Origin: Robiginitomaculum sp.
GTDB lineage: Bacteria > Pseudomonadota > Alphaproteobacteria > Caulobacterales > Maricaulaceae
NCBI GenBank assembly: GCA_015485335.1
Contig: WFTT01000064.1
Span: forward strand, 1-39,093
Direction of reading: 5' to 3'
Length of the DNA stretch: 39,093 nucleotides
Part shown: positions 6,371 through 30,753 of the stretch, in pieces
Layout of the letters: each line of letters starts with the position of its first letter
How positions within the stretch are numbered: the stretch's first letter is position 1
Notes under the pieces: generated by a model
The model's input: only the letters and a program-made list of their open reading frames with translations
Databases searched by the model: none
What the model was told of the DNA's origin: nothing
Program-made: the position numbers and the translations under genes

Positions 6371-6688
6371 CTACTGATCGATACGTTTCTTATCGCGAAT
6401 ACTGTAAAAGCGCGAAAGCGGGTTCACCGCAATAATCCCATCGCCCTCTATACCCGCATGAGCTGCATCCATGATGGCATTCACAATGCGGTCCGTCTGA
6501 TCTTCGGGAGCAAAGACCCGCACACAATTATATTGTTGCATCCAGCCACGCCGAAAAAAGTTTTTGCGCTCGCCATAGCCGCGCACCTGAAACACGCTAA
6601 CGCCGGGTACACCAATTTGTTGCAGGTTGAGACGCACCCGTTTCATGGCCAGCACATCCACGGTGGCGGTAATTTCATTATAAACCAT
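6371..6688 (-). CDS. PII-like signalling protein with shortened T-loop, in Rieske/cytochrome operon
   Basis: I start the protein at the ATG at 6688 (MVYNEITATVDV; 105 residues) because AAGGAA sits 6 nt before it. Upstream in-frame alternatives are an ATG at 6709 and a TTG at 6718. The PII ferredoxin-like fold is visible: a first strand, the helix with LNLQQIGVPGVSVFQVRGYGE, then APEDQTDRIVNAIMDAA, GIEGDGIIAVNPL and a closing Arg/Lys-rich SIRDKKRI. Between GYG and the next strand (CVRVF) the T-loop is several residues shorter than in GlnB, and the uridylylated tyrosine is missing. PII proteins bind adenine nucleotides and control partners by contact. Here the gene follows the Rieske gene by 26 nt rather than an ammonium transporter, so the partner is probably not nitrogen-related. 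Confidence 0.82.
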   Translation of the reverse strand: MVYNEITATVDVLAMKRVRLNLQQIGVPGVSVFQVRGYGERKNFFRRGWMQQYNCVRVFAPEDQTDRIVNAIMDAAHAGIEGDGIIAVNPLSRFYSIRDKKRIDQ

Positions 6689-6714: not shown

Positions 6715-7248
6715 TCAACCAATCCGCACGGTCTCATTTTCCCCAAAGGTATAGGGGGGCAGATCCAGATTGCGCGGGGCCGGTCCCCGGCGCACCCGGC
6801 CTGCGGTGTCGTACATGGATCCATGACAGGGACAGAACCACCCATGCCACGGCCCCCGGTTTTGCGGAATACGCTGGCCAATCGGCACACAACCCAAATG
6901 GGTGCAGATGCCAATAACGATCAGCCAGTCCTTGTGTTGTACCCGTTCATCATCCGTTGCCGGATCAATCAGATCCGCATGATCATCGGCCTCGGCCTCG
7001 GCAATTTCTTTTGGGGTGCGGCGACAGATAAAGATCGGCTTGCTGTTCCACTTAACAGTTATGCGCTGACCGACCTGCATATCGCTTAAATCAATCTCGA
7101 CCTTGCTCATGGCCAAAACATCGGCCGAAGGATTAAAACTGTCGATCAATGGCCAACCAACCAGACCAACCCCCGCAGCGGCCACCGTGCCGGTGGCAAT
7201 ATAGATAAAGTCCCGCCGCCGGGGCTGTGGTTCGGCCTTCATGTTCAT
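6715..7248 (-). CDS. Orphan Rieske 2Fe-2S protein (PetA-like)
   Basis: The 177-residue protein begins with a twin-arginine signal-anchor ([17 protein letters not shown], residues about 10-26), as in PetA. The cluster-binding motifs CTHLGC and CPCHGS are intact, giving the two Cys and two His ligands, with the disulphide cysteines also present; [14 protein letters not shown] follows. In the bc1 complex this subunit transfers electrons from quinol to cytochrome c1 on the periplasmic side. No cytochrome b or c1 gene is present in this window, so it is probably a second Rieske protein serving another route. AAGG lies 8 nt before the ATG. Two small cytochromes c are upstream in the operon and a PII-like gene is downstream. 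Family certain; redox partners inferred. Confidence 0.93.
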
Positions 7249-7271: not shown

Positions 7272-7622
7272 CTATGAGCCAAAGGCCTGATGCAGATAGG
7301 CCAGTACATTTTCAATGTCTTCGTCCGACAGATCTGGATTGCCGCCTTTGGCCGGCATGGGCATGGCCGAACCGGCGCTTTCAAAGCCATCGGTGATATG
7401 GCGGATCAGAACCTCATCCCCCTTCGCCAACACGCCGTCAGCCTGGGTAAAATCAGGTGTGCCGGGGATTTCGCCTTTGCCCTTGGCACCATGACAGAAG
7501 ACACAGGTGCCCTCGTAAACCGCCTTGCCTTTGGCGGCGTCCCCATCCCCATGGGCCTGAACGATCCCGGGTAGCAATAATGTGGCACTTACCGTCAACG
7601 CAATAAGGAATTGTTTTTTCAT
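7272..7622 (-). CDS. Small periplasmic monohaem cytochrome c
   Basis: This 116-residue protein has a signal peptide (about 1-23, ending in QAHG), one haem-binding CVFCH motif near residue 40, and a likely axial Met in [12 protein letters not shown]-terminal helix [20 protein letters not shown] is typical of class I cytochromes c (c5/c555 type). It would carry electrons in the periplasm. GGAG lies 7 nt before the ATG. It sits between the second cytochrome gene and the Rieske gene with gaps under 25 nt, which fits a short electron path between the Rieske protein and a cytochrome acceptor. Confidence 0.92.
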
Positions 7623-7637: not shown

Positions 7638-7946
7638 TTAATTACTGGCTTTGAGAAAGGCTTTGATATCTTCTGCCTCTAAAGGCAACAGGTTTGCCCG
7701 CACACGCATGTGGGTGACCGAAACATCCCATTCTTCATCGGTCAGCTCTTTGGGCGAACGCAGATTGTGGCAACGACCGCAATTGTTTTTCCACGCCTTG
7801 GCACCACGAACCACCTGCATGGGATCAGGTTTTTTGGCTTTGGCATTGGCGCTGTCCGGCCCGGCAATGGCCAGCGGCGCAAAAACCAGCATGGCCACGG
7901 CCAATGTGCTTCCCATCCATATGCCATTGTTTTTCATAATTTTCAT
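7638..7946 (-). CDS. Small haem-c-binding protein (cytochrome c)
   Basis: I place the start at the ATG at 7946 (MKIMKNNGIWMG; 102 residues), which has AGGAAC just upstream; the open frame continues to 7985 but would overlap the porin gene. There is a signal peptide (about 1-28, ending in IAGPDS) and one CGRCH haem motif (about residue 53), followed by NLRSPKELTDEEWDVSVTHM. That segment resembles the haem domain of small quinol-linked cytochromes, where a Met in WxxxVxxMR can be the sixth ligand. It is the second gene of the minus-strand operon after the porin. Electron transfer is clear from the motif; partners are inferred from neighbours. Confidence 0.88.
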   Translation of the reverse strand: MKIMKNNGIWMGSTLAVAMLVFAPLAIAGPDSANAKAKKPDPMQVVRGAKAWKNNCGRCHNLRSPKELTDEEWDVSVTHMRVRANLLPLEAEDIKAFLKASN

Positions 7947-7968: not shown

Positions 7969-9345
7969 TCAGAAGCCGTAGGCAATCTGGAATTGATAGA
8001 GGGTTTCGCTGGGCACGCCGGCGACCTTGAAATCGCGCCATTCCAGCCCGGCCTTGGTAACGATGGTGGGGGCCAGCCAATAGTTCAGCCCGACATTAAA
8101 GCGGTCTTGCGCGTTTTCTTCCCTGAGCACGTCATGGCCGGTAATCCGAAACTGGCCATAACGCACCACCGGTTCCAGATTGTGAATGAAGTCAGAACGG
8201 CCCACATTGGACATTCGATATGAGACCTGCCCGTACCAGGCCTTCATCCCCAATCGTGGCAGAAAGACACCGGTCGGATCATCGGCCGTAGGACTGAAAA
8301 AGGCGGCCCGATGGGAATTGAGATATTCAAAACGGGCGGCCAGCGCCCCTTTGGTATAGGCCGCATCCATGCCCCACAGGGTATAGCGCGCCTGATCCAG
8401 GGCGGAGGAGCCCACCGGCACATCCGCCGCAATGGTCACCGGGGCTTCTTCATGCCCTGCCGGAGGTGCATAACCGCTCACCTTGCCAGTCAGATAGGAG
8501 CCACCCAGCTCTAGATAGGGCAGTGCGAAAAAGCCGACACGCCCACCTATGGATTTATTGCTGTTATTGTCCTTGCCAACCCCTTCCAGCTTCACACCGC
8601 CTTCAAAAGTGGTTTGAGGGCCATTGCCCAGCGCCACCGCATAGGTAAAGCGGGTATTGCCCACCGGAACCGTACCACGCAATTGCACACCAGTGTCACT
8701 GGTCGGTTGTACACCGTCGTGACCAAAGCCGGCGGGCGCGCCTTGAATGCGGTTAATCCAGCTTGGATGCAGGCGCTCCTGGAACTGGCCAATCGGACTT
8801 AGATACTTACCGGCTACCAAAGTTACATAATCATTGATCGGAATATCAAATTGTGAATATTCCAATTCTGTGGTGGTTTTGCCGTCGTTAGTTGTTGAAA
8901 ACTCCAGCTCACTTTCAAAGATCAGCAGGTCTTTGTACTGAAAGTGGAACCCCGGGTTGAATTTACCGGTGACAAAACTATCCGGCCCGGGCATATCGCC
9001 GCCAACAAAGCCGACATCCGCATAACCAGCCAAATGCCATTTGGAATCAGATGGTGCGCCCGAATAGGCACCAGCAGCACCGGCTTTGGCCAGTTTCTGA
9101 ACGGTGCTTACTGTCTTAACCGCATTTTGCGCCGTCTCTTTGGCGGTACTGGCAGTTTGCACAGATTGCTGAACACTGGCCCGCAGAGCAATCAGTTCTG
9201 CCTCAAGTTTTTCAATACGTGCCAGCAAAGCCTGATTGGCAGAAGAGAGCCCCTCTTCTGCGCTGGCACTGGTTTGCGCCTCTGCCGGAATCGCACTTAG
9301 CAATACTATTGCGATGGCGGAAGATAGAAATAAAGTCTTTCTCAT
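7969..9345 (-). CDS. Porin-like outer membrane protein with N-terminal coiled coil
   Basis: The start is set at the ATG at 9345 (MRKTLFLSSAIA), giving 458 residues and a clean signal peptide cleaved after AEA. Residues about 30-80 form a heptad-rich coiled coil (NQALLARIEKLEAELIALRA), as in trimeric porins. The rest alternates polar and aromatic residues like a beta-barrel and ends in a C-terminal Phe (QFQIAYGF), the usual outer-membrane insertion signal. It probably forms an outer membrane channel; I do not recognise a substrate-specific subfamily. It heads the operon with two cytochromes, a Rieske protein and a PII-like protein. A promoter-like GAGGGA-N14-GCGTATA lies about 150 nt upstream. 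Confidence 0.82.
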   Translation of the reverse strand: MRKTLFLSSAIAIVLLSAIPAEAQTSASAEEGLSSANQALLARIEKLEAELIALRASVQQSVQTASTAKETAQNAVKTVSTVQKLAKAGAAGAYSGAPSDSKWHLAGYADVGFVGGDMPGPDSFVTGKFNPGFHFQYKDLLIFESELEFSTTNDGKTTTELEYSQFDIPINDYVTLVAGKYLSPIGQFQERLHPSWINRIQGAPAGFGHDGVQPTSDTGVQLRGTVPVGNTRFTYAVALGNGPQTTFEGGVKLEGVGKDNNSNKSIGGRVGFFALPYLELGGSYLTGKVSGYAPPAGHEEAPVTIAADVPVGSSALDQARYTLWGMDAAYTKGALAARFEYLNSHRAAFFSPTADDPTGVFLPRLGMKAWYGQVSYRMSNVGRSDFIHNLEPVVRYGQFRITGHDVLREENAQDRFNVGLNYWLAPTIVTKAGLEWRDFKVAGVPSETLYQFQIAYGF

Positions 9346-9494: not shown

Positions 9495-9521
9495 TATACG
9501 CAAGTGCAGGGGCATTCCCTC
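9495..9521 (-). promoter_or_regulatory. Putative ECF-sigma promoter for the porin/cytochrome/Rieske/PII operon
   Basis: On the minus strand GAGGGAAT (9521-9514) is followed, 14 nt after GAGGGA, by GCGTATA (9501-9495). The element has the same hexamer and identical spacing as those at 9573-9599 and 17595-17621. It would give a leader of about 140 nt before the porin start at 9345. Assignment to the CnrH-like sigma factor is inference. Confidence 0.6.
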
Positions 9522-9572
9522 AGAAAAAGTGTAAATCTGCGACAAAGCGCCGCTATTTTTCTAAAAACATTC

Positions 9573-9599
9573 GAGGGAATAGGGTTTTTGGAACGTATT
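9573..9599 (+). promoter_or_regulatory. Putative ECF-sigma promoter for the DUF2231-to-cnrH operon
   Basis: GAGGGA (9573-9578) and ACGTATT (9593-9599) are separated by exactly 14 nt, with the start codon 38 nt further on at 9637. GGAAC also occurs at 9590-9594. The element faces away from the matching copy at 9495-9521, so the two form a back-to-back pair. The sigma gene lies at the end of the operon served, which would give autoregulation. Confidence 0.65.
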
Positions 9600-9636
9600 G
9601 CATGCAAGAACCGCAATTGGTCACAAGGAAAATTTT

Positions 9637-10413
9637 ATGTACAAGAACTATCTGGGCGCGGTGGCGCTGCTCATCGTGCTGGGGTTTATGGCGTTGGCCA
9701 TGCCTGCACAGGCGCACGGCAATAAGCAACACGCGGCCAAACCAGCGACGCCGCCCATAACCGAAGTCACAAAGACAGACCCCGCAACGGCACATAATGA
9801 CGATCACCCGATTGCTTCTGAGGGCCACAATGCCACCCCTCATGAGCATGATGAAAGCGCCCAAGACCATCATGGCGACGAACCGGCGGTCCACAGCCAT
9901 GGGGAGGGCGAGGAAGAAGAAGGCCATTCCCATTGGGGTAAAAACGGCCCCTCCACTCCGTTTGAAAAGTTTTTGGCTTATCTGGGTAATTTTCACGCCC
10001 TTATCGTGCACTTTCCCATTGCGCTGATCCTTACTGCGGCGCTGGCGCAAGGGTTGTATCTCGCCGGACGGCAGGAAAAATACGCAGACATTGTGCGCTT
10101 TACCGTATGGATTGCCGCCTTTGGCGCCTTGGGCGCAGGCTTGCTTGGCTGGGCCCATGCCGGACCAACACCGGCCCACGAAACCGGGGTGATGATGTAT
10201 CATCGCTGGATCGGGACCAGCTTGTTGCTGGGCGGGTTTGCCACGGCCTTTCTGATGGAGGCAGCACGCAAGCGTTCGGGCACCGATACGGTCACCCTGG
10301 CATTCAACATTGCCTTGTTCAGCATGGCTGCCCTGGTTGCCACCAACGGGTTTCTGGGCGGCGCCCTGGCCCATGGGGGCATGAAGCACCTGATGCCAGG
10401 CATGATGGGCTGA
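9637..10413 (+). CDS. His-rich DUF2231-type membrane protein
   Basis: The chosen ATG (9637) follows AAGGAA at 9625-9630 and gives 258 residues. A signal sequence (about 1-27, ending in AQAHG) is followed by a roughly 90-residue periplasmic segment crowded with His, Asp and Glu, suited to binding divalent metal. From about residue 115 there are four hydrophobic helices beginning NFHALIVHFPIALILTAAL, the H-x3-VHFPIAL signature of DUF2231 membrane proteins. The molecular function of that family is not established. As first gene of the operon that ends in the CnrYXH-type module, and preceded by the shared promoter motif, it probably belongs to the metal response. A His-rich loop fused to DUF2231 is the notable feature. 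Confidence 0.82.
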   Translation: MYKNYLGAVALLIVLGFMALAMPAQAHGNKQHAAKPATPPITEVTKTDPATAHNDDHPIASEGHNATPHEHDESAQDHHGDEPAVHSHGEGEEEEGHSHWGKNGPSTPFEKFLAYLGNFHALIVHFPIALILTAALAQGLYLAGRQEKYADIVRFTVWIAAFGALGAGLLGWAHAGPTPAHETGVMMYHRWIGTSLLLGGFATAFLMEAARKRSGTDTVTLAFNIALFSMAALVATNGFLGGALAHGGMKHLMPGMMG

Positions 10414-10416
10414 GCC

Positions 10417-11571
10417 GTGCCCTACCCCAAGGACATACGCAGCCTGACCCGGGTTCGGTTTTTTGCCGCCCTCTGGGTCATTTTTTTTCACTGGCGCGTC
10501 AGTTGGAACGTGAATGTGGATCAGTATACCGGCTTGTTCGAATCCGGACGTCTGGGCGTAGACATATTCTTTGTACTATCCGGCTTTGTGCTGGCCCATG
10601 CCTATTTCAACAAAGTGCGGACGGGGAAATTTGATTACTGGCAGTTTCTGGTGGCGCGTCTGGCGCGCATTTACCCACTGCATGTGCTGGTATTTGGTTT
10701 TGTCGGGGCGATGCTGATCGGTAGTGCCTTTTTGGGTGTGCCGCCGCAAATGGATGCTTTTCCCCACGGTCACATCTTGCCCAATCTGTTGCTGATCCAG
10801 GCCTGGGGCCTCACCCCCGGGGCGACCTGGAATGTACCGGCATGGTCAATCAGTGCGGAATGGTTCGCCTATTTGTTATTCCCCGCCTTTGCCTTGCTGG
10901 GGCTTAAATTCGCCAATCGACCGGTTTATGGGTTTTTGCTGGGGCTGGGGCTGTTTTTTGCCTTTGATCGCCTGTATCTGGCCATGGTTGGCTCCCCTTT
11001 GCCCAGCGCCACAGACAATTTCGGGATATTGCGGATTGTGCCGGAATTTCTGATGGGGTTCATGCTCTATCTGATCGGACAGCACTTTACCCTGAAAGCC
11101 CGCTGGCAGCGCGTCGGCGGACTGTCCATAACCATCATCGCCCTGTTGTTGGCCGCCCACTGGCGGACGGACGAGCGGATCATCGCCCTGTTGTCGGTGC
11201 CGCTGGTATTTTTGCTGGCCGAGCTTTCCAGATATGCACCCGCCACCGTACCCCGCTTTGAGCCAACCGAATATCTGGGCCGGGTTTCCTATTCCATGTA
11301 TCTCTGGCACATGCCGTTTTTCATGGCGGCCTATAACATTCTGGAAGATGTGCTGGGCTGGGTCAGTGGGCCGCTTTCAACCCTGCCCATGCTGATCCTG
11401 CTGGCCATTTTCCTGTTGGTTTGTGTGCTGAGCTACCACTTTATTGAAAATCCCGCCCGCAATGTTGTGCGCCAAAAGGGCAATCATATGATTGCTTCTG
11501 TCCGCCGGGCCTTCTCGGGGGCCATGGCGGAACAAACGGCACCTCCCCAACTGGAAAAAAGGACTTCCTGA
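10417..11571 (+). CDS. Acyltransferase 3 family membrane protein (OafA/YrhL-like)
   Basis: The gene starts with GTG only 3 nt after the previous stop, and encodes 384 residues. The N-terminus RVRFFAALWVIFFHWRVSW has the His of the acyltransferase-3 family, followed by GVDIFFVLSGFVLAHAYF and a typical sequence of about ten membrane helices. The late motif GRVSYSMYLWHMPFF is also diagnostic. Family members O-acylate sugars in the envelope (LPS, capsule, peptidoglycan) from the cytoplasmic membrane. Here it sits inside a metal-responsive operon, between His-rich exported proteins, so envelope modification during metal stress is a reasonable inference. The acceptor is unknown. Confidence 0.9.
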   Translation: MPYPKDIRSLTRVRFFAALWVIFFHWRVSWNVNVDQYTGLFESGRLGVDIFFVLSGFVLAHAYFNKVRTGKFDYWQFLVARLARIYPLHVLVFGFVGAMLIGSAFLGVPPQMDAFPHGHILPNLLLIQAWGLTPGATWNVPAWSISAEWFAYLLFPAFALLGLKFANRPVYGFLLGLGLFFAFDRLYLAMVGSPLPSATDNFGILRIVPEFLMGFMLYLIGQHFTLKARWQRVGGLSITIIALLLAAHWRTDERIIALLSVPLVFLLAELSRYAPATVPRFEPTEYLGRVSYSMYLWHMPFFMAAYNILEDVLGWVSGPLSTLPMLILLAIFLLVCVLSYHFIENPARNVVRQKGNHMIASVRRAFSGAMAEQTAPPQLEKRTS

Positions 11572-11572
11572 A

Positions 11573-12061
11573 ATGCGTACACTTCTGATTATCACCACCA
11601 GCGCTCTGGGCCTTGCCCTTGCCACCCATAATGCGGCAGCAGACCCGGAGCACCAGCACGGCGCCGAACACCATGATATGAACGCCATGGACGCCCCAAC
11701 CCAGGTTTTACAAGCCTATGCCAACGCCATTGCCAGCGAAAACGTGGCGGAAATGGAAACCTATGTTGCCAGCGAAGGCAAAGCCTTTACCATTTTTGAA
11801 GGCAAGGGTGCCAATGCCGGCTGGGCCGATTATCGCGATCACCATCTGGCCCCGGAATTTGCCAATCCGGACCTGACCTTTCACACCTACAAGTACAAAG
11901 ACATTGCCACCCACACCGAAGGTGATCTGGCATTCTCGACCTTTTCCATTGAAATGGTCTATACATACAAGGGCGAAGACAAAAGCCGCACCGGGCATGG
12001 TACGGCCATATTGCGACGCCATGATAATGCATGGAAAATTGTGCATTTACACACATCCTGA
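11573..12061 (+). CDS. Exported His-rich NTF2-like (SnoaL/DUF4440-type) protein
   Basis: The start at 11573 (MRTLLIITTSALG; 162 residues) lies 1 nt after the acyltransferase stop, with an AAAAGGA ribosome-binding site upstream. It has a signal peptide (about 1-23, ending in NAAADP) and a short metal-binding-like stretch EHQHGAEHHDMNAMD. The rest is an NTF2-like cone fold: VLQAYANAIASENVAEMETYV, then WADYRDHHLAPEF, and a closing strand AWKIVHLHTS. The fold is usually a small ligand-binding or enzymatic domain and no catalytic set is evident. The His/Met leader and the operon suggest a periplasmic metal-binding or stress role. Family moderately sure, role unknown. Confidence 0.82.
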   Translation: MRTLLIITTSALGLALATHNAAADPEHQHGAEHHDMNAMDAPTQVLQAYANAIASENVAEMETYVASEGKAFTIFEGKGANAGWADYRDHHLAPEFANPDLTFHTYKYKDIATHTEGDLAFSTFSIEMVYTYKGEDKSRTGHGTAILRRHDNAWKIVHLHTS

Positions 12062-12073
12062 AGGAGGCGCCCC

Positions 12074-12346
12074 ATGACAGACAAGCTGGATCAATTACTC
12101 GGCGAGCTGAGAACCGAAGACCGGGCGCTCAGTCTAAGTGCCCTGGAGGCACAGGTTTGGCAACGCCTGAACGCGGACCGCCCCCTGCCACACACCGTAT
12201 TTTTTATGCAGGCCCTGCGCGCTGTACCGGTGGTGTTGGCGCTGGTCTTGGGCGGCACGGTTGGTGCACGGGCCATGACCTCCCATGATGACATTTCCGC
12301 CTTTTCCGCTACCCCGGCCTATAGCGTCTTGCGGCTGGTGAAATAG
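12074..12346 (+). CDS. cnrY: CnrY-like membrane anti-sigma factor (putative)
   Basis: This 90-residue protein has a hydrophilic N-terminal helix (about 1-40, DQLLGELRTEDRALSLSALE), one membrane helix (about 50-68, LRAVPVVLALVLGGTVGARA) and a short exported tail. That is the architecture of CnrY, the small single-span anti-sigma factor that holds CnrH at the membrane. The primary sequence is too short for confident homology by eye. The assignment rests mainly on position: it is followed 2 nt later by a clear CnrX-type sensor, and then by an ECF sigma gene, in the order cnrY-cnrX-cnrH. A GGAGG site lies just before the ATG. Confidence 0.72.
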   Translation: MTDKLDQLLGELRTEDRALSLSALEAQVWQRLNADRPLPHTVFFMQALRAVPVVLALVLGGTVGARAMTSHDDISAFSATPAYSVLRLVK

Positions 12347-12348
12347 GG

Positions 12349-12795
12349 ATGTCCAGAAGTCATTGGCGTCATACGGTCCTTGCCATCATCCTCAGCTTTG
12401 TCGCCGGCATTGCCGGCGTATGGGTTGGCCTGAACACCCTGCCCGGAACCGGCTCCAGCACGGTGAGCCTGCACGAGAAAATTCACCACGAGTTCGTGCT
12501 GAATTCTGAACAGAAAATCGCGCTGCACGAACTGGAAGACCATTATGCGCAAAGCCGTGAAACCTATATCAAAGCCTTGAAAGCCGCCAATTTCGAACTG
12601 GCATCGGCAATCAAGGAACACCACGACCTTTCTCCGGAAGTCGTCCTGGCCGAACAAAAATACCTTAGCGTTCTTGGTGAGTTTCAGACCGAAACCCTGC
12701 GCCATATTTTTGCAATGCGGGCCATTATGTCCCCCGAACAGGCCAAAAAGTTTGATGATATTGTGTTGCGGTCGCTCCATGACATCGCCCAATAA
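12349..12795 (+). CDS. cnrX: CnrX-like periplasmic metal sensor
   Basis: The protein has 148 residues, the length I recall for CnrX of Cupriavidus metallidurans. A membrane anchor (about 9-28) is followed by a four-helix periplasmic domain. The metal ligands described for CnrX (His42, His46, Glu63, His119, Met123) are all present at the same numbers: HEKIH gives 42 and 46, ELED gives Glu63, and HIFAM gives 119 and 123. In the known system Ni or Co binding changes the CnrX-CnrY interaction and releases CnrH. The ORF overlaps the downstream sigma gene by 17 nt. Ligand conservation makes the sensor role convincing; which metal it answers to here is open. Confidence 0.9.
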   Translation: MSRSHWRHTVLAIILSFVAGIAGVWVGLNTLPGTGSSTVSLHEKIHHEFVLNSEQKIALHELEDHYAQSRETYIKALKAANFELASAIKEHHDLSPEVVLAEQKYLSVLGEFQTETLRHIFAMRAIMSPEQAKKFDDIVLRSLHDIAQ

Positions 12796-13357
12796 CCAAA
12801 CCGAGGACGAAAACACAGATACGGCATTGATTGCCCGGGCATTGGGCGGTGAAGACATGGCCTTCACTCTGTTGATGCGTCGCTACAAAACGCCTTTGTT
12901 TCGCTTTGCCCTGCGCCATCTGGGCGATGAGGATGATGCCGAAGATGCGGTCCAGGATGCCTTCATCTCCTCCTATAACAACCTGCACCGGTTCAACCCC
13001 AAATACCGGTTTTCCACCTGGATCTTCCAGATTACCCTGAACAAATGTCGCGATATCGGACGCAAGCGCAAAACCCGCTCGTTTATGCAGCGCCTGACCC
13101 CTTTTGTGGAAAATACCGTTTCCAGCAATGGTGGTTCAGACAATCCCGAAGCCCTGCATCAGTCCCGGGCCGCCTTGAGCCAGCTCAAAGACCAGATTGC
13201 CCAGTTACCCGAGACGTTAAAACCTGCGTTTATCCTGTGTGCGCTTGAGCAAAAATCCCACAAGGAAGCCAGTGAGATACTAAAACTTAGCCCCAAGGCA
13301 GTGGAATTGAGGGTTTATCGCGCCCGCCAACAGCTCAAAGCTCATTTGCAAATCTGA
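12779..13357 (+). CDS. cnrH: CnrH-like ECF RNA polymerase sigma factor
   Basis: The start at 12779 (MTSPNNQTEDEN; 192 residues) overlaps the end of the cnrX-like gene. Region 2 is clear: FTLLMRRYKTPLFRFALRHLG, DAEDAVQDAFISSYNNL, then FSTWIFQITLNKCRD. A linker is followed by region 4 with LPETLKPAFILCALEQKSHKEASEILKLSPKAVELRVYRA. Length and operon position match CnrH, which directs transcription of metal-resistance genes when released from CnrY. It is the last gene of an operon whose upstream promoter (9573) belongs to a three-site motif set, so autoregulation is likely. The other two copies suggest the porin and lipoprotein operons as targets. Confidence 0.93.
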   Translation: MTSPNNQTEDENTDTALIARALGGEDMAFTLLMRRYKTPLFRFALRHLGDEDDAEDAVQDAFISSYNNLHRFNPKYRFSTWIFQITLNKCRDIGRKRKTRSFMQRLTPFVENTVSSNGGSDNPEALHQSRAALSQLKDQIAQLPETLKPAFILCALEQKSHKEASEILKLSPKAVELRVYRARQQLKAHLQI

Positions 13358-13370
13358 CCCTATCGGTCAG
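13354..13370. terminator. Perfect hairpin spanning both stop codons of convergent genes
   Basis: CTGACC (13354-13359) and GGTCAG (13365-13370) form a perfect 6-bp stem with a 5-nt loop. The stem contains the TGA of the sigma gene on the plus strand and the TGA of the DUF5676 gene on the minus strand. ATTTT follows on the plus side and ATTTG on the minus side, so a weak bidirectional terminator is plausible. The short stem makes it uncertain. Confidence 0.45.
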
Positions 13371-13639
13371 GATTTTGAAAACCAGTTATACAGCGGGACA
13401 TAAATCAGCGCGATCCACCAGCCATACAGATAACTTTCCACCAACCCGATCACAAACCCGGATGGAGACAGCCAGGTAAATCCCGGCAACAAAGCCTCCC
13501 ACGCCGTATGCATATGCATGGGCAAAGGGGTCAACAGCCCCCATACCACACACGCAACAAAACTGATGGCGATAAATAAAGACAAGGCGTGACCAACTGG
13601 CTTTATGCGCATTTTTGAAGACTGGTTTTGCGTATTCAT
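13367..13639 (-). CDS. DUF5676-type small membrane protein
   Basis: The 90-residue protein (MNTQNQSSKMRIKPVGHAL) starts 1 nt after the CDF gene stop. It has two membrane helices: FIAISFVACVVWGLLTP and, near the end, SGFVIGLVESYLYGWWIALIY, closing with VPLYNWF. The GLVESYLYGW and LYNWF pattern matches my memory of DUF5676, small membrane proteins often found with heavy-metal transport genes and of unknown function. Here it is the last gene of the lipoprotein/ATPase/CDF operon. A role as accessory subunit for the CDF protein or the ATPase is only a suggestion from position. Confidence 0.72.
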   Translation of the reverse strand: MNTQNQSSKMRIKPVGHALSLFIAISFVACVVWGLLTPLPMHMHTAWEALLPGFTWLSPSGFVIGLVESYLYGWWIALIYVPLYNWFSKS

Positions 13640-13640
13640 T

Positions 13641-14612
13641 TCAGCTCTCCTTATGGTGTGGCGGTTGCCCGATAAAATCCAGATCCGCCTGTTCGCTTTC
13701 GTCCAGACAATGGGTTTCAATCTGCAGCGTGCTGAAAAACAGGCCAAAATCCTGACGCAGAACCTTGTGGGCAGCCACCAGAATAGCGTTCGCATCTGCA
13801 TCTTTTTCTATGCGTAAATGCGCCGAAAAAAGCGCCTTGCCGGAAGTCAGCGTCCAGGCATGAACATGATGGGCATTGCGCACCCCGGGCAAAGATGCCA
13901 GCGCGCGGATAACCGCCTCCATATCCAGGTTCGCCGGGGCGCTTTCCATCAAAATCGACAAGGCCTCACGGATAATCCCGACCGAGGCCATAAGCAACAC
14001 CACACCAAAGGCCATGCCCAGGATCGGATCAATCATGACAAAGCCGGTAAAGCGGATGACCAGCGCCGCCACAATAATCAAAATACTGCCCACAAAGGTC
14101 TGCATGACGTGCCAGAAGGCGCCACGCATATTGATGTTGTCCTTTTGACCACCAAACAAAAGCGCAATCGAGATCACCTCGGTGACCAGGCCGCCCAGGG
14201 CCGCCACCAGCATGGGGGTGGTGGGCAGGTCCACCGGATCGCCCAGCCGCATTCCCCCCATGACAAACACCAATATGGCCATCAGCAGCAAAAACACGCC
14301 ATTGAGCAACGCACCCACAATTTCAGCCCGGGTGGAACCAAAGGTGTGGCGCGCATCCGCAGGGCGGCGCGCTATGCGGGCCGCCACAAAGGCCAGCACC
14401 ACCCCGCCTACCGCAGAAAATGTATGAAACGCATCCGAGAGCACCGAGATAGAGCCGGTATAGATCCCGATGCCCAGCTCAATCAGAAAATAGATCCCCG
14501 TCAGCCAGCCTGTGATTTTTAGGGCGCGGGCATTGGCAGAGGCCGGCATGTGCGAGCCGTGACCACCACCAGCGCCGGTGGGCATAGGGGCCTTATGCGT
14601 CTTGCCTTGCAT
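13641..14612 (-). CDS. Cation diffusion facilitator family protein with altered metal site
   Basis: This 323-residue protein has a His-containing N-terminus, six membrane helices and the C-terminal cytoplasmic domain (about 215-310, including VRNAHHVHAWTL), as in CzcD/ZitB. These proteins exchange protons for Zn, Co or Cd to export metal. In helix 2 the sequence is SDAFHTFSAVGG where HxxxD is expected, so the Asp is Ala. In helix 5 it is AFWHVMQTFVGS where HVLGD is usual, so the Asp is Thr. Two of four transport-site ligands are therefore missing. The ATPase stop codon is part of this gene's ribosome-binding site (TAGGAG), indicating tight coupling. Family is certain; transport competence or metal choice is in doubt. 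Confidence 0.92.
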   Translation of the reverse strand: MQGKTHKAPMPTGAGGGHGSHMPASANARALKITGWLTGIYFLIELGIGIYTGSISVLSDAFHTFSAVGGVVLAFVAARIARRPADARHTFGSTRAEIVGALLNGVFLLLMAILVFVMGGMRLGDPVDLPTTPMLVAALGGLVTEVISIALLFGGQKDNINMRGAFWHVMQTFVGSILIIVAALVIRFTGFVMIDPILGMAFGVVLLMASVGIIREALSILMESAPANLDMEAVIRALASLPGVRNAHHVHAWTLTSGKALFSAHLRIEKDADANAILVAAHKVLRQDFGLFFSTLQIETHCLDESEQADLDFIGQPPHHKES

Positions 14613-14624
14613 TTTCTCTCTCTC

Positions 14625-16871
14625 CTACAATTTCACCCGGCGCAATCGCAGCGCATTGGAAATCACGGAAAATGAACTGAAACTCATGGCCGCCGCCGCA
14701 ATCATTGGCGAGAGTAAAATGCCAAACACCGGATACAGGACACCGGCCGCTATGGGTACGCCCAGAGCATTATAGGCAAAGGCAAAAAACAGGTTCTGCC
14801 GTATGTTTTTCATGGTTGCCTCGGACAAGCGACGCGCCCGCACAATGCCGCGCAAATCCCCCCGCAAGAGGGTAATGCCGGCACTTTCCACTGCCACATC
14901 GGCGCCGGTGCCCATGGCAATACCAACATCGGCCTGGGCCAGTGCCGGCGAGTCATTAACCCCATCCCCGGCCATGGCCACTTTGTGTCCTTTGGCCTGC
15001 AGGCTTTTGACCAGTTCGGCCTTGTCTTCGGGCATCACGCCAGCGCGAATTTCATCAATGCCCAGCTTGTCTGCTACCGCCTGGGCGGTGCGCACGTGAT
15101 CGCCCGTGGCCATGATGATCTTCAGACCTTCCTTGTGCAGCGCCCATATGGCTTCATCCGTACTTTGCTTGATCGGATCGGTGACCACCAGCAATGCCGC
15201 CGGCTTGCCATCCATGGCCAGAAACATCACCGTGGCGCCTTCTTCACGCTGGGCATCGGCTTTTTGGATAAAGGCCTCGTCCTGAATGCCAGTTTCGTTC
15301 ATCATGCGAGCATTGCCAAGGACCAGCGAATGCCCATCAACCTGGCCAGTAACGCCCATGCCGGAATGAGAGTGAAAATCCTCGGCCGGAGGTATTTCCA
15401 GGGACTTTGCCTTGGCAGCCTCGACAATGGCTTCGGCCAGAGGATGGGCACTGCCTTGTTCCAGTGCCGCCGCGGCCCTTAGAAGGTCATCTTCATTACC
15501 ATTATTGACAACAATAACGCCGGTCAGTTTTGGCTTGCCCTCGGTCAGGGTGCCGGTTTTATCCACTACCAGCGTGTCCACCTTGGCAAAGCGTTCCAGG
15601 GCCTCGGCATTTTTGATCAGAACACCGGCCTGTGCCCCCCGACCCGTGGAAACCATGATTGAGATTGGCGTCGCCAGACCCAACGCACAGGGACAGGCAA
15701 TGATCAATACCGAAACCGCCGCAATTAGGCCATAGGCCATAGGCGGGTTTGGCCCCCAAACGGACCAGGCCACAAAGGCAATTACGGCACTGAGAACCAC
15801 CAAAGGTACGAATATGCCAGAAACGGAATCAGCCAGTTTCTGAATGGGCGCGCGCGAACGCTGGGCCTCGGCGACCATGGTTACGATTTGCGACAGCATG
15901 GTATCGGCACCCACCCGAGTGGCCCGAAATACAAAGGTGCCATTACCATTGATGGTACCACCGGTAACACTGTCACCTGGTTCTTTTTCCGCCGGCACAG
16001 GCTCACCAGTCAACAGCGATTCATCCACATGGGACGTTCCTTCCACAACCTCACCATCGACCGGGATTTTGTCGCCCGGACGGATGCGCAACAGATCTCC
16101 CTGTTGCACCTCTTCCAGAGGGATGTCTTCTTCGCTCCCATCTTCACGGACGATACGGGCGGTTTTGGGGGCCAGGTCCAGCAAGGCCCGTATGGCCCCG
16201 CCAGTGCGTTCGCGGGCGCGCAGCTCCAGCACCTGTCCCAGTAACACCAGGACGATAATTACCGCGGCAGCTTCAAAATAGACTGCCACACTGCCATCTT
16301 CGGCACGAAAGGCATCGGGGAAGATATCCGGCATCAACGCCGCAATGGAGCTGTAAATATAGGCTGCCCCCGTCCCCATGGCGATCAGAGTAAACATATT
16401 GGGGCTTTTGTTCAGAACCGATTGCCACCCTCTGACAAAAAATGGCCAGCCAGACCATAAGACCACCGGCGTGGCCAAAAACAGTTCCACCAGTCTTGAA
16501 AGGCGCGGTTCCACCCAGCTTTCAACCGGCAGGCCAACATAAGGCCCCATGGCCAGAACCAGTAACGGTACCGTCAGTACCAGGCCAAACCAGAAACGGC
16601 GACTGAAATCAATCAGTTCAGGGTTTGGACCATCATCCACGGCCGGCACCCCTTTGGGTTCCAGCGCCATACCGCAAATCGGGCAATTTCCCGGACCCTT
16701 TTGCTCAATCTCCGGGTGCATGGGACAGGTATAAATCGCATTTTCATCCACAGGCCCGGTCGGCGGTTTTGCAGCGCCGTGATCGTGGTGACAGGCATGT
16801 TCATGTGCAGCATGCGAGGCATCATGGTGATGATCATGCCCCGCCGATTTATCATGGTGATGGTGGTTCAT
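14625..16871 (-). CDS. copA: Cu-type P1B ATPase with His-rich and CPMH/CPIC N-terminus
   Basis: The start is placed at the ATG at 16871 ([12 protein letters not shown]; 748 residues); a longer frame reaches 16910. The N-terminus is a 40-residue His-rich tail followed by a heavy-metal-binding domain with TCPMHPEI and CPICGMAL, and there is no GMTCxxC HMA domain. The ATPase core is complete: TGEP (actuator), [10 protein letters not shown] in the transport helix, [11 protein letters not shown] (phosphorylated Asp), HPLAEAIVE and [10 protein letters not shown]. The last helices carry AYNALGVP and [13 protein letters not shown], the YN and MSxSS residues of Cu(I)/Ag(I) P1B-1 pumps. It exports monovalent copper or silver from the cytoplasm. 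It lies 85 nt after the Met-rich lipoprotein gene and before the CDF gene. Confidence 0.95.
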
Positions 16872-16956
16872 TTTTCTACCCATAAAAAAATAAGCTGCAA
16901 ACGAACACAAGGGGGAGGTGCCGTTTGCAGCCAGTTAACGCAAAATGTGTGCGCTC

Positions 16957-17571
16957 TTAATGGTTGTGCGCGGACGGGGCCGCCTCGTCGGCGGCTTCGT
17001 TTTGCGCTTCGGCGTCCTTGTGCATTTTATCATGCATCATTTTATGGCATTTTTTCTGCATTTCGCTCATGCCCTCGCCGGATTTCATTTTTGCTTTCAT
17101 GGCGGCCATATCCATGTCGCCGCTTTGCATCTTTTCATGCATTTTGGCCTTCATGGCTTTGCATTCCGGGGGCATATCCTTCATCTGGCCCGATGATTCC
17201 GACATCATGGGTTTATGCCCTTTTTGATCATCGGACTTGTGCATTTTATCATGCATCATTTTGTGGCATTTTTTCTGTGTTTCGCTCATGCCCTCGCCGG
17301 ATTTCATTTTTGCTTTCATGGCGGCCATATCCATGTCGCCGCTTTGCATCTTTTCATGCATTTTGGCCATCATGGCTTTGCATTCCGATGGCATGGCCTT
17401 CATCTGGCCCGATGATTCTGGCATCATGGATTTATGCTCACCATGCTCCATCGTCATGGGCATGGCGTCTTTGGGCGCCGGCTTAGAGGGGCCGGTTGTT
17501 GTGGTAGCACAGGCACTTAGCGCCAGCACACCAGCCCCAATCAATGCAAAACGAGAAATATGGTTGATCAT
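16957..17571 (-). CDS. Met/His/Lys/Cys-rich lipoprotein with two internal repeats
   Basis: Starting at the ATG at 17571 (MINHISRFALIG) gives 204 residues. The signal peptide ends in a lipobox, LALSAC, so the protein should be lipid-anchored. The mature part is two tandem copies of a 73-residue unit (each with ESSGQMK, ECKAM, KMHEKMQSGDMDMAAMKAK, KKCHKMMHDKMHK). Each copy has two cysteines and many Met and His, a composition suited to binding Cu(I) or Ag(I). I do not recognise a named family. The ORF is preceded 24 nt upstream by the shared promoter-like motif and followed by the Cu-type ATPase gene. A periplasm-facing copper buffer or chaperone is the best inference. Confidence 0.85.
   Translation of the reverse strand: MINHISRFALIGAGVLALSACATTTTGPSKPAPKDAMPMTMEHGEHKSMMPESSGQMKAMPSECKAMMAKMHEKMQSGDMDMAAMKAKMKSGEGMSETQKKCHKMMHDKMHKSDDQKGHKPMMSESSGQMKDMPPECKAMKAKMHEKMQSGDMDMAAMKAKMKSGEGMSEMQKKCHKMMHDKMHKDAEAQNEAADEAAPSAHNH
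17018..17436 (-). repeat. Tandem 219-bp in-frame duplication within the lipoprotein gene
   Basis: The stretch from 17436 down to 17218 recurs from 17217 down to about 17018 with few differences. The period is exactly 219 bp (73 codons); for example TGCATTTTATCATGCATCAT occurs at 17021 and 17240. Near-identity at DNA level means a recent duplication or ongoing homogenisation. Confidence 0.92.
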
Positions 17572-17594
17572 AAGACACTCCCTTGTTCTCGCGT

Positions 17595-17621
17595 AATACG
17601 TAAGAGAGGGGGTCATCCCTC
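17595..17621 (-). promoter_or_regulatory. Putative ECF-sigma promoter for the lipoprotein/ATPase/CDF/DUF5676 operon
   Basis: On the minus strand GAGGGA (17621-17616) and ACGTATT (17601-17595) are separated by exactly 14 nt. Both elements are identical to those of the 9573 promoter. The start codon at 17571 lies 24 nt after the -10-like element. Control by the CnrH-like sigma factor is inferred. Confidence 0.65.
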
Positions 17622-17815: not shown

Positions 17816-19849
17816 TTACCGGTCGTTGCTACGTACGTGACCTTTAGGGAAGAGGTCCAGTACCATGCCACTGTTGCTATCAGCAGTCATTGCCATCCCA
17901 CGGATCGGGTTAACAACCGAGCTTTGGTCGTCATCTTCAACCCGCAGAGTAGCCAGGCCGCTATAGCTTCCAGCCGCTGCGCAGCTTTGCAGAGAAACGG
18001 TCACGGTATAGAGGTTCGTACCCGCAGTGGAGGTTGCAAAGCCACCAGAGACCGTACAAGCCTGTGTGGAACCAGGAACCGTATAAGTCCCGCTGAAGGA
18101 ACCATCGCTGGAAACGGTCAGGTCACCAATGTCCGCACTACCATCGTAGAAGTCGAAGCTGCCGCCGAGATTGGAAAGGACCGTGGCCCGATCATAATCT
18201 CTGGAGAAGGCTGCCCGCAAAGAGCCACTGCCGATAGAGGCAATCGTGGAACCCGTAGACGGAACATACGTACCGGTCAGAGAGTTTCTGGCATTCCAGT
18301 TACCGCCAAGCTGGTAAGCAACACCGCCAACTGTTTTGGCTAGGTCAAGAACCTGGGCGCTGGAAGTCCAGCCACCGGAACCATCGGTGCTGATCGTGCC
18401 GGCAATGAGCGTAGCAGATGCCGTACGGTTTCTTGAATTGTCGTTACCGTCACCATCGCTGTCATTATCGTTGGAGCCGTTGCCGTCACCATCGTTGTCG
18501 TTGTCGCCGGAACCGTTACCATTATGGTCATTGCCATTGTTGTCACCGGAACTGTTGCCGTCACCGTCGTTATCGTTGTCGCCAGAGCCGTTACCGTCCC
18601 CGTCACCATCGTTATCGCCGGAGCCATTACCGTTGTTGTCACCGGAACCGTTATTATCGCCAGAACCGTTGTTATCGCCGGAACCATTGTTATCGCCGGA
18701 ACCGTTGTTATCGCCAGAACCGTTATTGTCACCGGAACCGTTGTTATCGCCGGATCCATTGTTATCGCCATTATCGCCTTCGCCACCACCATCGTGGTTG
18801 CCGTTTTCATCGCTATAGATGATGGCATTCAATGTACCGGCTGCAGAGATAAACAACAGGCCTTCGTTATAGCCGCCATTACTGCTGTTAAAGCGGGCTT
18901 CCCAGATCCCTTCGGGTACAGCCGAAGCGGTCTGAGGGGCAGAATTAGCCGGCGCTGGCGCCGTTACTGCCAGGCCTGTCGCGCCGCGGCCTTCGCCACG
19001 CTGGTCGCTTTGAGGGGTGGCTTCTTCATAAAAGCGCAGGTAAACGCGGGACAGATCTGGAAAATCCGGGATACCCGCATCGGGGTCTGCATTTGCAAAA
19101 ACCGTATAGCTTTTACCGGTCGCACCAACCTTGGTGTGGATAAAGGTGGCCGGGTCAGCCAGACATGCGCCTGTGGCAGCGTCAGTTTCACAAACAAACA
19201 GGCTAACCGGCAGAGCAACATTGCCGGTATCCGGCATGGCGATCAGGTCGGCTTCTTCAGCCTTGCCATTTGTGCCGGCGCCAATGTTTACCGCAGAGAT
19301 AGCCATGGCTTCGGCGCCACCGGTGGACGAGATACGAATGTAACCATCGCCACTGGCTGATTGTGCAATGGTCAGCACATCAGGAGAAGGGGTGGCCGAA
19401 GCAGAAAAGGAAAGAGCGTTCACGCCATCAACGACGGGAGCCTCAACTTTGGCACCAGCATCATCTGTACAGCTGTAGCTGAGCCGCAAAGTTCCGGCAG
19501 GGATCGGGGCGCTGGCCGTAAAGGAAACAACGAAAGCCTGAGAGGTACCGGGCGCGATGTCCACGGGTGTGTCCACGGCAGCGGCGGGGGTAGAGTTGTC
19601 AGCCTGCATGGCTTGATACGAAACGCTTACAGGAAGGTTGGCCTTGCGAACACCAATGCTGCATGAGCGGGCAATACTGTTACCACTATTAACCATGCTG
19701 GCGAAAATCGTTACCGGCCTATTGATCGTGGTTGAGCGACTGGATGGCAGTACTGCTGCTTGTAGTGCAGGACCTGCCAGAGCCGGAGTTGATGCACCCA
19801 TCACCGTCAGGGAAGCTGCACTTAACAAAAATACTTTACGAGAAATCAT
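17816..19849 (-). CDS. Large exported protein of unknown function with GDNNGS and DxDxDG repeats
   Basis: The start is set at the ATG at 19849 (MISRKVFLLSAAS; 677 residues), which has GGAG 6 nt upstream; an ATG at 19861 is in frame. A signal peptide (about 1-26, ending in ALAGP) leads into a roughly 330-residue beta-rich region. Residues about 356-475 are low-complexity: seven GDNNGS-type hexapeptides, then four DNDxDGDGN loops. A last 200-residue domain with paired cysteines has strands such as GGSFDFYDGSADIG and FSGTYTVPG. DxDxDG loops are calcium-binding in thrombospondin type 3, dockerin and EF-hand proteins, so a Ca-stiffened linker between two beta domains is plausible. I recognise no named family. 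It has its own terminator and no obvious operon partner. Confidence 0.82.
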   Translation of the reverse strand: MISRKVFLLSAASLTVMGASTPALAGPALQAAVLPSSRSTTINRPVTIFASMVNSGNSIARSCSIGVRKANLPVSVSYQAMQADNSTPAAAVDTPVDIAPGTSQAFVVSFTASAPIPAGTLRLSYSCTDDAGAKVEAPVVDGVNALSFSASATPSPDVLTIAQSASGDGYIRISSTGGAEAMAISAVNIGAGTNGKAEEADLIAMPDTGNVALPVSLFVCETDAATGACLADPATFIHTKVGATGKSYTVFANADPDAGIPDFPDLSRVYLRFYEEATPQSDQRGEGRGATGLAVTAPAPANSAPQTASAVPEGIWEARFNSSNGGYNEGLLFISAAGTLNAIIYSDENGNHDGGGEGDNGDNNGSGDNNGSGDNNGSGDNNGSGDNNGSGDNNGSGDNNGSGDNNGNGSGDNDGDGDGNGSGDNDNDGDGNSSGDNNGNDHNGNGSGDNDNDGDGNGSNDNDSDGDGNDNSRNRTASATLIAGTISTDGSGGWTSSAQVLDLAKTVGGVAYQLGGNWNARNSLTGTYVPSTGSTIASIGSGSLRAAFSRDYDRATVLSNLGGSFDFYDGSADIGDLTVSSDGSFSGTYTVPGSTQACTVSGGFATSTAGTNLYTVTVSLQSCAAAGSYSGLATLRVEDDDQSSVVNPIRGMAMTADSNSGMVLDLFPKGHVRSNDR
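18430..18780 (-). repeat. Degenerate 18-bp tandem repeats encoding GDNNGS, grading into DNDxDGDGN
   Basis: An 18-bp unit repeats across about 18620-18780, differing at synonymous positions (TTA/TTG, CCA/CCG), and continues at lower order to about 18430. Synonymous variation with a conserved peptide suggests selection on the protein. The absence of stops in the repeat produces long spurious frames on the opposite strand. Confidence 0.9.
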
Positions 19850-19968
19850 CCTAATCTCCATTATTCAACATTTCGGCACCAAGCCGTTCAGTGCATTGAC
19901 GCCATGGCCGGGGAATAACCTCCACTCTGAATGTGATTTCTTGAAATAAAATGATTTGGAGGGGGGGA

Positions 19969-20010: not shown

Positions 20011-20113
20011 AATTACCGTTAGAAAACCGCACGAATTTTAATTCAATGATAAAGATAAATTATGGCGCATTCCTCCATTGCGAAGGCCCTTATAATTGCC
20101 CATACTCAGATTC

Positions 20114-20638
20114 ATGCTGGGTGAGGATTTGAAAACCACCTATATGGCACAGCGTGCCAATTTATGCCGGTTTCTGGCAGCACGTTTGCGCGATGATGCT
20201 GTTGCTGAGGACCTGGTACAAGAGTTGTGGGTCAAGGTCAGCAAACTCGAACTCAAAGAAGAACTGGACAATCCGGTCAGTTATCTTTTCACCATGGCTG
20301 GCCGAATGGCCCTGGATCATATCCGCCAGCGCCAGCGCCGCTCCCGCCGTGATGAAAAATGGACAGATGAAAGCACGGAAACCGTTGGCGGCTTTGCCAC
20401 CAGCGCTGAAGATGATGGGGAAACCCGGCTGTTGCGGGCCGAACGCATTGCCCAGGTGCGGGCCGCCATTGATACCTTGCCGCCAAAGGCACGCAGGGCC
20501 TTTCAATTGCACCGAATGGAGGGATTATCCCACAAAGAGGTCGCCGCCGAATTGGGCATTTCCGTCAGCACAGTGGAAAAACATATCATCCGCGCCATGC
20601 GTGAATTAACGCAAATTTTGCGTGAAGCGGATCCTTGA
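20114..20638 (+). CDS. FecI-type ECF sigma factor
   Basis: From the ATG at 20114 the protein has 174 residues; a TTG at 20096 extends it by six. Region 2 is visible as ANLCRFLAARLRDDAVAEDLVQELWVKV and NPVSYLFTMAGRMALDHIRQ. Region 4 contains LPPKARRAFQLHRMEGLSHKEVAAELGISVSTVEKHI. The VEKHI recognition helix and the adjacent FecR and STN-receptor genes place it in the FecI group. This group transcribes the receptor operon when the outer membrane receptor is loaded. It is distinct from the CnrH-like factor in the window. The ribosome-binding site is not obvious, so the start is uncertain. Confidence 0.93.
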   Translation: MLGEDLKTTYMAQRANLCRFLAARLRDDAVAEDLVQELWVKVSKLELKEELDNPVSYLFTMAGRMALDHIRQRQRRSRRDEKWTDESTETVGGFATSAEDDGETRLLRAERIAQVRAAIDTLPPKARRAFQLHRMEGLSHKEVAAELGISVSTVEKHIIRAMRELTQILREADP

Positions 20639-20734
20639 TATATAGAGTGTAAAAATAATTATGCTTTTTTTTGAAAAAAGTGGAGGGTTATCCCGGGCGG
20701 TGGCGTCACCCCTGTGAGACAGTAGAAAGAGAAC

Positions 20735-21805: not shown

Positions 21806-21829
21806 TCACTTTTTCGCTATACTGAGGGC

Positions 21830-27313: not shown

Positions 27314-27322
27314 GGGCCGAAA

Positions 27323-30448: not shown

Positions 30449-30753
30449 GAGAGATCAAAGCCTATATCCACAGGAACCGGGCGGCTGATGTCGTCCGGGC
30501 CCTACGCAAGGCCGATTTTGGGCATTTCACATTGGTGGATGTCAAACAGGTTCTGCAATCGCTGGAAACCGCCGATCAGGAATTTTCCACCGAATTTGGC
30601 GCCCGTGTGCTGACCGAGGTGAAACTGGAACTGGTCTGTGACAGCGATCGTTTAAAAGAAGCCATTATCCTGATCCGTGAAAATGCCAAAACCGGACAAG
30701 CGGATTCAGGGTGCATCTATGTCAGTGAAATAGAAAGCCGGCATAGGATCTAG
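30445..30753 (+). CDS. PII-like protein coupled to heavy-metal RND pump
   Basis: The start at 30445 (MREIKAYIHRNRAADVV; 102 residues) overlaps the czcA stop (ATGA) and has a GGGAGG ribosome-binding site at 30432-30437. PII features are visible: a first strand REIKAYIHRNRA, a helix and turn VVRALRKADFGHFTLVDV, EVKLELVCDSDRLKEAIILI, and the GCIYVSEIESRHRI end. The T-loop (about 37-54) has no uridylylatable Tyr. PII-like genes linked to CzcA-type pumps are a recognised group (sometimes called PII-NG) of poorly known function. The tight overlap implies stoichiometric production with the pump, fitting direct nucleotide-dependent control of the transporter. Confidence 0.85.
   Translation: MREIKAYIHRNRAADVVRALRKADFGHFTLVDVKQVLQSLETADQEFSTEFGARVLTEVKLELVCDSDRLKEAIILIRENAKTGQADSGCIYVSEIESRHRI

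Follow-up and report, generated by a model that had tools for sequence, protein, structure and literature searches.

Three operons behind a shared element

The stretch of DNA analysed here (the window) comprised 39,093 nucleotides (nt) of contig WFTT01000064.1 from Robiginitomaculum sp. It contained three operons, each preceded by one copy of the element GAGGGA-N14-RCGTAT with identical spacing, which resembled the cnr promoters of the Cupriavidus metallidurans plasmid pMOL28 (Table 1). The sites of the porin and sigma operons were divergent and lay back to back, 51 bases apart. The genes downstream of the three sites were those of the porin (ATG codon at 9345, −), the DUF2231 protein (9637, +), and the lipoprotein (17571, −). 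The original prediction had described the sites, their common spacing, their position before operons, and the back-to-back pair, all of which were confirmed, but it had drawn the far ends one base too long, each site being composed of 26 bases. By chance, 0.01 copies of the element were expected in the window, and none of 100 dinucleotide shuffles contained three copies, in agreement with the earlier estimate of far less than one. Transcription starts were predicted by the cnr rule, 8 nt past CGTAT, which would place the start of the lipoprotein operon 17 nt ahead of its ATG codon.

Table 1. Genes of the three operons and their predicted promoters in the window
Feature	Position	Strand	Evidence
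Predicted CnrH-type promoter, porin operon, GAGGGA-N14-GCGTAT	9496–9521	−	matrix score 29.8, highest in window; predicted start ~9488
Predicted CnrH-type promoter, sigma operon, GAGGGA-N14-ACGTAT	9573–9598	+	matrix score 23.8; predicted start ~9606
Predicted CnrH-type promoter, lipoprotein/CopA/CDF operon	17596–17621	−	matrix score 29.2; predicted start ~17588
DUF2231 membrane protein, sigma operon gene 1	9637–10413	+	PF09990
Acyltransferase-3 family membrane protein	10417–11571	+	PF01757
Secreted SnoaL/NTF2-like protein	11573–12061	+	PF13474
Y-position anti-sigma candidate, 90 amino acids, one hydrophobic stretch	12074–12346	+	not recognisably CnrY
CnrX-type periplasmic metal sensor	12349–12795	+	PDB sequence matches, kept ligands
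CnrH-type sigma factor, overlapping sensor gene	12779–13357	+	PF04542, PF08281
Porin-like outer membrane protein (by eye)	7969–9345	−	open reading frame; no Pfam match; orthologues in relatives
Small CxxCH c-type cytochrome (by eye)	7638–7937	−	sequence; no Pfam match
Cytochrome c	7272–7622	−	PF13442, PF00034
Rieske iron-sulfur protein	6715–7248	−	TIGR01416, E 8.9e-63
P-II family protein	6371–6688	−	PF00543
Met/His-rich lipoprotein (by eye)	16957–17571	−	sequence; no Pfam match; orthologues in relatives
P1B-type ATPase with HMBD (CopA)	14625–16874	−	PF00122, PF19335
CDF (cation diffusion facilitator) exporter	13641–14612	−	PF01545, PF16916
Two-transmembrane protein DUF5676, operon end	13367–13639	−	PF18926

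Conservation of the element in relatives

The sigma factor was searched in 137 genomes of the family at an E value of at most 1e-20 and was present in 39 of them, the genome under study (G000) included; several of the 39 were single-contig assemblies. The flanking regions were fetched from the 20 best-scoring genomes besides G000; other G numbers denote family genomes, L numbers fetched loci, and C numbers contigs of G000. The homologous loci, made up of the first 20 kb of the window with its sites counted and the loci of the 20 relatives, amounted to 336 kb. Over this set, GAGGGA-Nn-CGTA had 22 matches at n = 15 and a single one at the 20 other spacings (n 5–25), and a relaxed form, beginning [GA]AGGG[ATG], matched 43 times at n = 15 versus 19 times over the 20 others.

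The nearest upstream [GA]AGGGN-N15-CGTA headed a same-strand run of genes ending in the sigma gene in 20 of the 21 loci, with a chance expectation of about 0.02 such sites per 3 kb. The exception, L048, began at a contig end within the sigma operon; a separate contig of its genome bore a divergent pair of sites, which was taken to be the missing operon start. Sites also preceded the sigma genes of L159, L160, and L162–L164, which were left out of the counts because they had been fetched from genomes with motif matches.

A matrix trained on 23 sites from the 20 relatives and on none from G000 ranked the three window sites first to third. The next scores in the window, 13.3 at 31148 and 10.3 at 23244, both lay inside gene regions; the former exceeded the best scores of all five letter-shuffled windows (7.0–10.7).

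Association of the element with the sigma gene

Of the 137 genomes, 31 contained the pattern TTGAGGGA-N15-CGTA, with 46 matches by our own table count, versus 12 for the reversed pattern. By the same kind of count, 26 of the 39 sigma-positive genomes had it, as did 5 of the 98 sigma-negative ones (Fisher p 1e-13, without correction for kinship). Four of the five sigma-negative matches were located inside same-strand open frames of 309–450 codons, and the fifth belonged to G132, an assembly of 520 contigs in which sites preceded the porin and lipoprotein genes. Some matches in sigma-positive genomes likewise resembled chance hits, such as the ones in G003 and G127 that fall within open frames (L068, L094).

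Orthologues of the target genes were compared with the same matrix. A site preceded the orthologous porin in G135, G119, G130, G127, and G132, and a weaker one was present in G122. CopA orthologues with an upstream site were found in G135, G119, G120, G127, G128, G125, and G132 (score 24.0 in the sigma-negative G132), and the CopA site of G122 was weak, with a score of 12.9. The training set of the matrix included the porin sites of G135 and G130 and the CopA sites of G119 and G120, and the porin of G128 and the lipoprotein of G130 were cut by contig ends. In the sigma-negative congeners G124 (CopA 62% identical) and G126 (CopA in two pieces), no CopA site was found, the scores being 3.9 and 3.1.

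Comparison with cnr and ncc promoters

On pMOL28, the cnrCp promoter reads GAGGGGA...CGTAT and contains GGGA-N15-CGTA, exactly the spacing of the window element, and cnrYp reads GGGGGA-N14-CGTAT. The transcription starts listed for these promoters in the available part of PMC9045368, 53286+ and 54660+, were both placed by coordinate arithmetic 8 nt past the T of CGTAT. In Cupriavidus sp. EM10, GGGA-N14-CGTAT precedes nccC of the ncc operon, and GGGGA-N13-CGTAT lies ahead of nccX, in the place expected for an unannotated nccY.

As judged from these sequences, the window element is a CnrH-type promoter, a type already known, and a wholly new promoter type was rejected by the comparison with cnrYp and cnrCp. 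The original prediction of a new CnrH-type regulon thus did not hold for the promoter, which is not new, but it held for the target set.

Sigma factor, sensor, and Y-position protein

The window sigma factor contained sigma2 and sigma4 domains (PF04542, PF08281), and its nearest solved structure by sequence was CnrH (PDB code 4cxf, E 1.4e-22), with 34% identity. In a tree of extracytoplasmic function (ECF) sigma factors, CnrH fell within the same 38-row group as the window sigma (support 89/89, not starred), a weak check only, since long branches meet there.

All PDB sequence matches of the window sensor up to an E value of 1 were CnrX or NccX chains (7 distinct sequences, best 2.6e-14), and its score against the Pfam family Metal_resist, 27.6 bits, was slightly below the cut-off of 29.2. 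The sensor retained all residues aligned with His42, His46, Glu63, His119, and Met123 of CnrX, which we take to be the metal ligands of that protein. Among 23 sensors, CnrX and NccX excluded, these positions were kept in 22, 23, 23, 22, and 22, respectively, the exceptions being L064 and L066.

The protein encoded at the Y position agreed with CnrY in position, size, and a single hydrophobic helix. It did not match the CnrY/NccY family NF033790 of NCBIfam, for which CnrY of pMOL28 as a control gave 1.9e-40. The AlphaFold model of this protein (pLDDT 64.5, pTM 0.24) suggests three helices. The CnrYXH-type cassette of the original prediction was recognisable in its X and H members, but not in Y.

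The Y-position protein ended in a Cys-Cys tail (CCG, CCD, or CCGS) in all seven fetched sigma loci of genus g18 (L052, L053, L054, L055, L057, L060, and L061). This tail is expected to lie in the periplasm, and it was absent from the other 16 Y-position proteins of the same alignment.

The cassette was compared with known systems. The CnrYXH system of C. metallidurans pMOL28 and NccXH shared with the window the Y-X-H order, the overlap of the X and H genes, the CnrX ligands, and the promoter element, although the spacers of cnrYp (N14) and ncc (N13 and N14) varied. The window differed in that the sigma gene was the last of a six-gene operon, in the divergence of the sigma and Y proteins, and in targets other than cnrCBA. 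Plasmid-borne CnrXH-like cassettes of Novosphingobium (L098, without annotation), Caulobacter (L099), and Sphingorhabdus (L100) also combined a sensor with a sigma gene but differed in their gene sets. Copper genes adjoined L099 and L100. GGGA-N15-CGTA or GGGA-N16-CGTA was found upstream of the sigma gene in L098 and L099, and no such element was found in L100. No described regulon was found for these three cassettes; the Sphingorhabdus and Caulobacter plasmids indicate that the association of CnrXH with copper genes may be wider than this family.

Two copper-related ECF sigma factors were also considered. According to the available passages of PMC10141476, CorE of Myxococcus xanthus likewise activates genes for multicopper oxidase and copper ATPase, but in CorE a Cys-rich extension at the C terminus binds the copper, in place of control by an anti-sigma factor. 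No such tail was seen by eye in the window sigma, which ended after region 4, and Y and X genes were present. SigAb of Acinetobacter baumannii, as described in the available passages of PMC12153292, also answers to copper and has an anti-sigma factor likened to CnrY; however, its direct regulon consists of sigAb, relA, and a small RNA, metal genes being affected indirectly, and those passages mention no CnrX-type sensor.

Targets in the window and the host genome

The predicted porin/cytochrome/Rieske/PII and lipoprotein/Cu-ATPase/CDF targets would form, together with the sigma operon, a local regulon of three operons that was strongly supported by conservation in the 20 relatives. The sequence of the P1B-type ATPase contained CPC, N-x6-YN-x4-P, and MxxSS, presumably a Cu(I) signature. 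The CDF protein read DAFHTFSA at the position where the DxxHxxxD motif of CDF proteins is expected, and its metal site may be altered.

The regulon probably extends beyond the window that the original prediction had considered. A scan of the whole genome with TGAGGGD-N15-CGTAT gave four matches (control 0): two window sites, one on C13, and GAGGGG-N15-CGTAT on C4, 86 nt before the ATG codon of a multicopper oxidase gene. The latter site scored 14.6, against −0.8 for the runner-up in the surrounding sequence. The run of genes behind it (L170:536–5514) encoded the multicopper oxidase, CopB (PF05275, 1.7e-84), and a fatty acid cis/trans isomerase (PF06934, 1.1e-255). This oxidase was sought because relatives had sites before multicopper oxidase genes, and the prediction was met.

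The first frames downstream of sites amounted to 60, with redundancy; 16 were scanned with Pfam and some of the others placed by similarity. In other genomes, sites preceded genes for multicopper oxidases (identified with Pfam at L073, L079, L085, and L104 and from similarity at L109), cupredoxins (L090 and L107, with a weak case at L112), and cyclopropane synthases (Pfam at L083, similarity at L084). Further genes behind sites coded for outer membrane efflux proteins (L069, L070, L081), a CDF protein (L086), a PepSY protein, and acyltransferases, and lipoprotein-CopA genes also occurred there. In G123 and G133, a site headed a cupredoxin–multicopper oxidase–CopB stretch followed by the genes from DUF2231 to sigma. 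In G135, a cupredoxin-like gene replaced DUF2231 behind nearly the same promoter; it was 76% like the G119 gene behind the same promoter, which matched Copper-bind (PF00127, 4.6e-05). G000 itself had no match to PF00127. The isomerase was not found in the multicopper oxidase stretches of G120, G130, G111, G115, and G107 and, being seen in G000 only, was rejected as a general member of the regulon.

What is new is the target set, copper-detoxification genes under a CnrH-type promoter. As the original prediction had stated, it is unlike classical cnrCBA: no site was found before the czcCBA-type operon of the window, an RND efflux operon of the cnrCBA/nccCBA kind. In the open-licence PMC literature, no description of a CnrXH-type copper regulon was found among the matches listed, and no paper on copper resistance in Robiginitomaculum was found.

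Other sites and neighbouring genes

The genome-wide scan for the exact element that had been proposed gave five matches, and the reversed-pattern control gave none. The matches comprised the three window sites, one on C57, and one on C13. The C57 site (L002:1501–1526; score 15.6) preceded rpoH (sigma-32, named by eye) at a distance of 118 or 172 nt, depending on the ATG chosen. None of the exact matches inspected in congeners preceded rpoH, and the upstream regions of congener rpoH genes were not examined directly. The C13 site (L001:1501–1526; score 30.2) lay within the 3' end of a gene, a dGTPase by eye, 271 nt ahead of a gene for a secreted protein. This protein resembled by eye the window protein 17816–19861, with AAVLPSSRS and SFTASA in common. 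The latter, also secreted, has no Pfam match and carries a long low-complexity repeat of the NGSGDN type; its gene adjoins the lipoprotein promoter.

The window also contained genes for a FecI-type ECF sigma, an apparent FecR protein, and an apparent TonB receptor (20096–24319). A CzcCBA-type efflux operon and, behind it, a second gene of the P-II family (PF00543) occupied 24924–30753, with no CnrH-type site. Among the best 15 matrix scores of the window, none suitably preceded the czcCBA-type operon (24924–30448), the TonB receptors, or the FecI-type cassette, and these were rejected as further targets.

Proposed mechanism and alternative explanations

At rest, the one-helix Y-position protein would keep the sigma factor at the inner membrane and would itself be held by the CnrX-type periplasmic sensor. 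When a metal, most likely copper, filled the His/His/Glu/His/Met site of the sensor, this grip would loosen, and the freed sigma would join RNA polymerase and fire [G/A]AGGG-N16-CGTAT promoters. It would thereby fire its own operon in positive feedback, the divergent porin–cytochrome–Rieske–PII operon, the lipoprotein–CopA–CDF operon, and, on another contig, the multicopper oxidase–CopB–fatty acid cis/trans isomerase operon. As a speculation, the porin–cytochrome–Rieske operon may provide the electron flow for copper oxidation in the periplasm.

On sequence grounds, the three sites are very probably promoters of an autoregulated CnrH-type sigma, the one encoded at 12779–13357. The autoregulation that the original prediction had proposed was strongly supported by the 20 of 21 operons headed by a site, the spacer control, the matrix trained on other genomes, and the agreement with cnrYp and cnrCp. 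Several observations weigh against this reading. Upstream of the porin genes of G120, G123, and G133, those of G121 and G125 (more distant, at 41%), and the CopA gene of G123, no site was found although the sigma was present in these genomes, so that the motif check on orthologous intergenic regions came out in favour for many porin and CopA orthologues and against for several. G132 bears sites, yet it was sigma-negative at the cut-off. Similarity between the Y-position protein and CnrY was not detectable (BLASTP E 19, hhalign probability 0.2%). Finally, the cnrYp start is labelled RpoD in the available part of PMC11647585, and that of PMC9045368 mentions both an RpoD promoter before cnrY and a non-RpoD cnrYp.

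It is very improbable that the sites are read by another sigma, such as the C55 paralogue or one for general stress. One exact site precedes rpoH, and −35 GGGAA-like and −10 CGT-like elements occur in several ECF groups, but the motif was present where the window-type sigma was and headed 20 of 21 of its operons, the element matched the cnr promoters, and the C55 paralogue was only 33% identical. Still less probable are repeats that bind a repressor or activator instead of a sigma factor. Two of the three sites do lie in a divergent region; however, the motif is neither a palindrome nor a direct repeat, has −35/−10 geometry, points at the sigma operon in 20 loci, and coincides with pMOL28 promoters whose starts have been published. 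Chance resemblance is the most remote explanation. About one exact match genome-wide could arise randomly by estimate, and the C13 match lies inside a coding frame, but a chance origin of the three window sites was already refuted by the shuffles, the spacer peak, and the held-out matrix, and is contradicted by the operons headed in the relatives.

Copper, a theme that the original prediction had not named, is probably the main signal of this CnrXH-type system, and it was favoured because of the targets, not the sensor ligands. The same promoters and sigma might instead answer to nickel, cobalt, zinc, or several metals, with the copper genes as part of a broad response, a possible but rather doubtful alternative. 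In its favour, the ligands are those of a Ni/Co sensor and so do not indicate copper, the window regulon includes a CDF exporter, a type that usually transports Zn/Co/Cd, and sites in G008, G011, and G097 are followed by genes for outer membrane efflux, which would also fit other metals. These points weigh against copper, whereas many of the genes behind sites have copper functions (multicopper oxidase, CopB, cupredoxin, Cu-type ATPase), and the czcCBA-type operon of the window has no site.

Implications

A copper-responsive ECF type has been described in CorE, which acts through its own C-terminal extension, according to the available passages of PMC10141476. If the copper reading is true, a sensor/anti-sigma type with a regulon defined by sequence across many genomes would be a second mode beside CorE. 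The CnrX ligands are kept and the targets are copper genes, which makes the metal specificity of CnrX-type sensors directly testable.

With about even confidence, the CnrXH-type pathway, known for Ni/Co, may have become a dedicated regulon for periplasmic copper across a large part of one alphaproteobacterial family, as outlined by the distribution of the sigma gene. It would have kept the Ni/Co-type sensor ligands and coupled copper oxidation and export to membrane remodelling, and the Cys-Cys tail of genus g18 could bind Cu(I) directly. Membrane-remodelling genes were located behind sites in G000 (fatty acid cis/trans isomerase) and in two other genomes (cyclopropane synthase); if this is true, lipid-modifying enzymes would be predicted to form part of copper defence.

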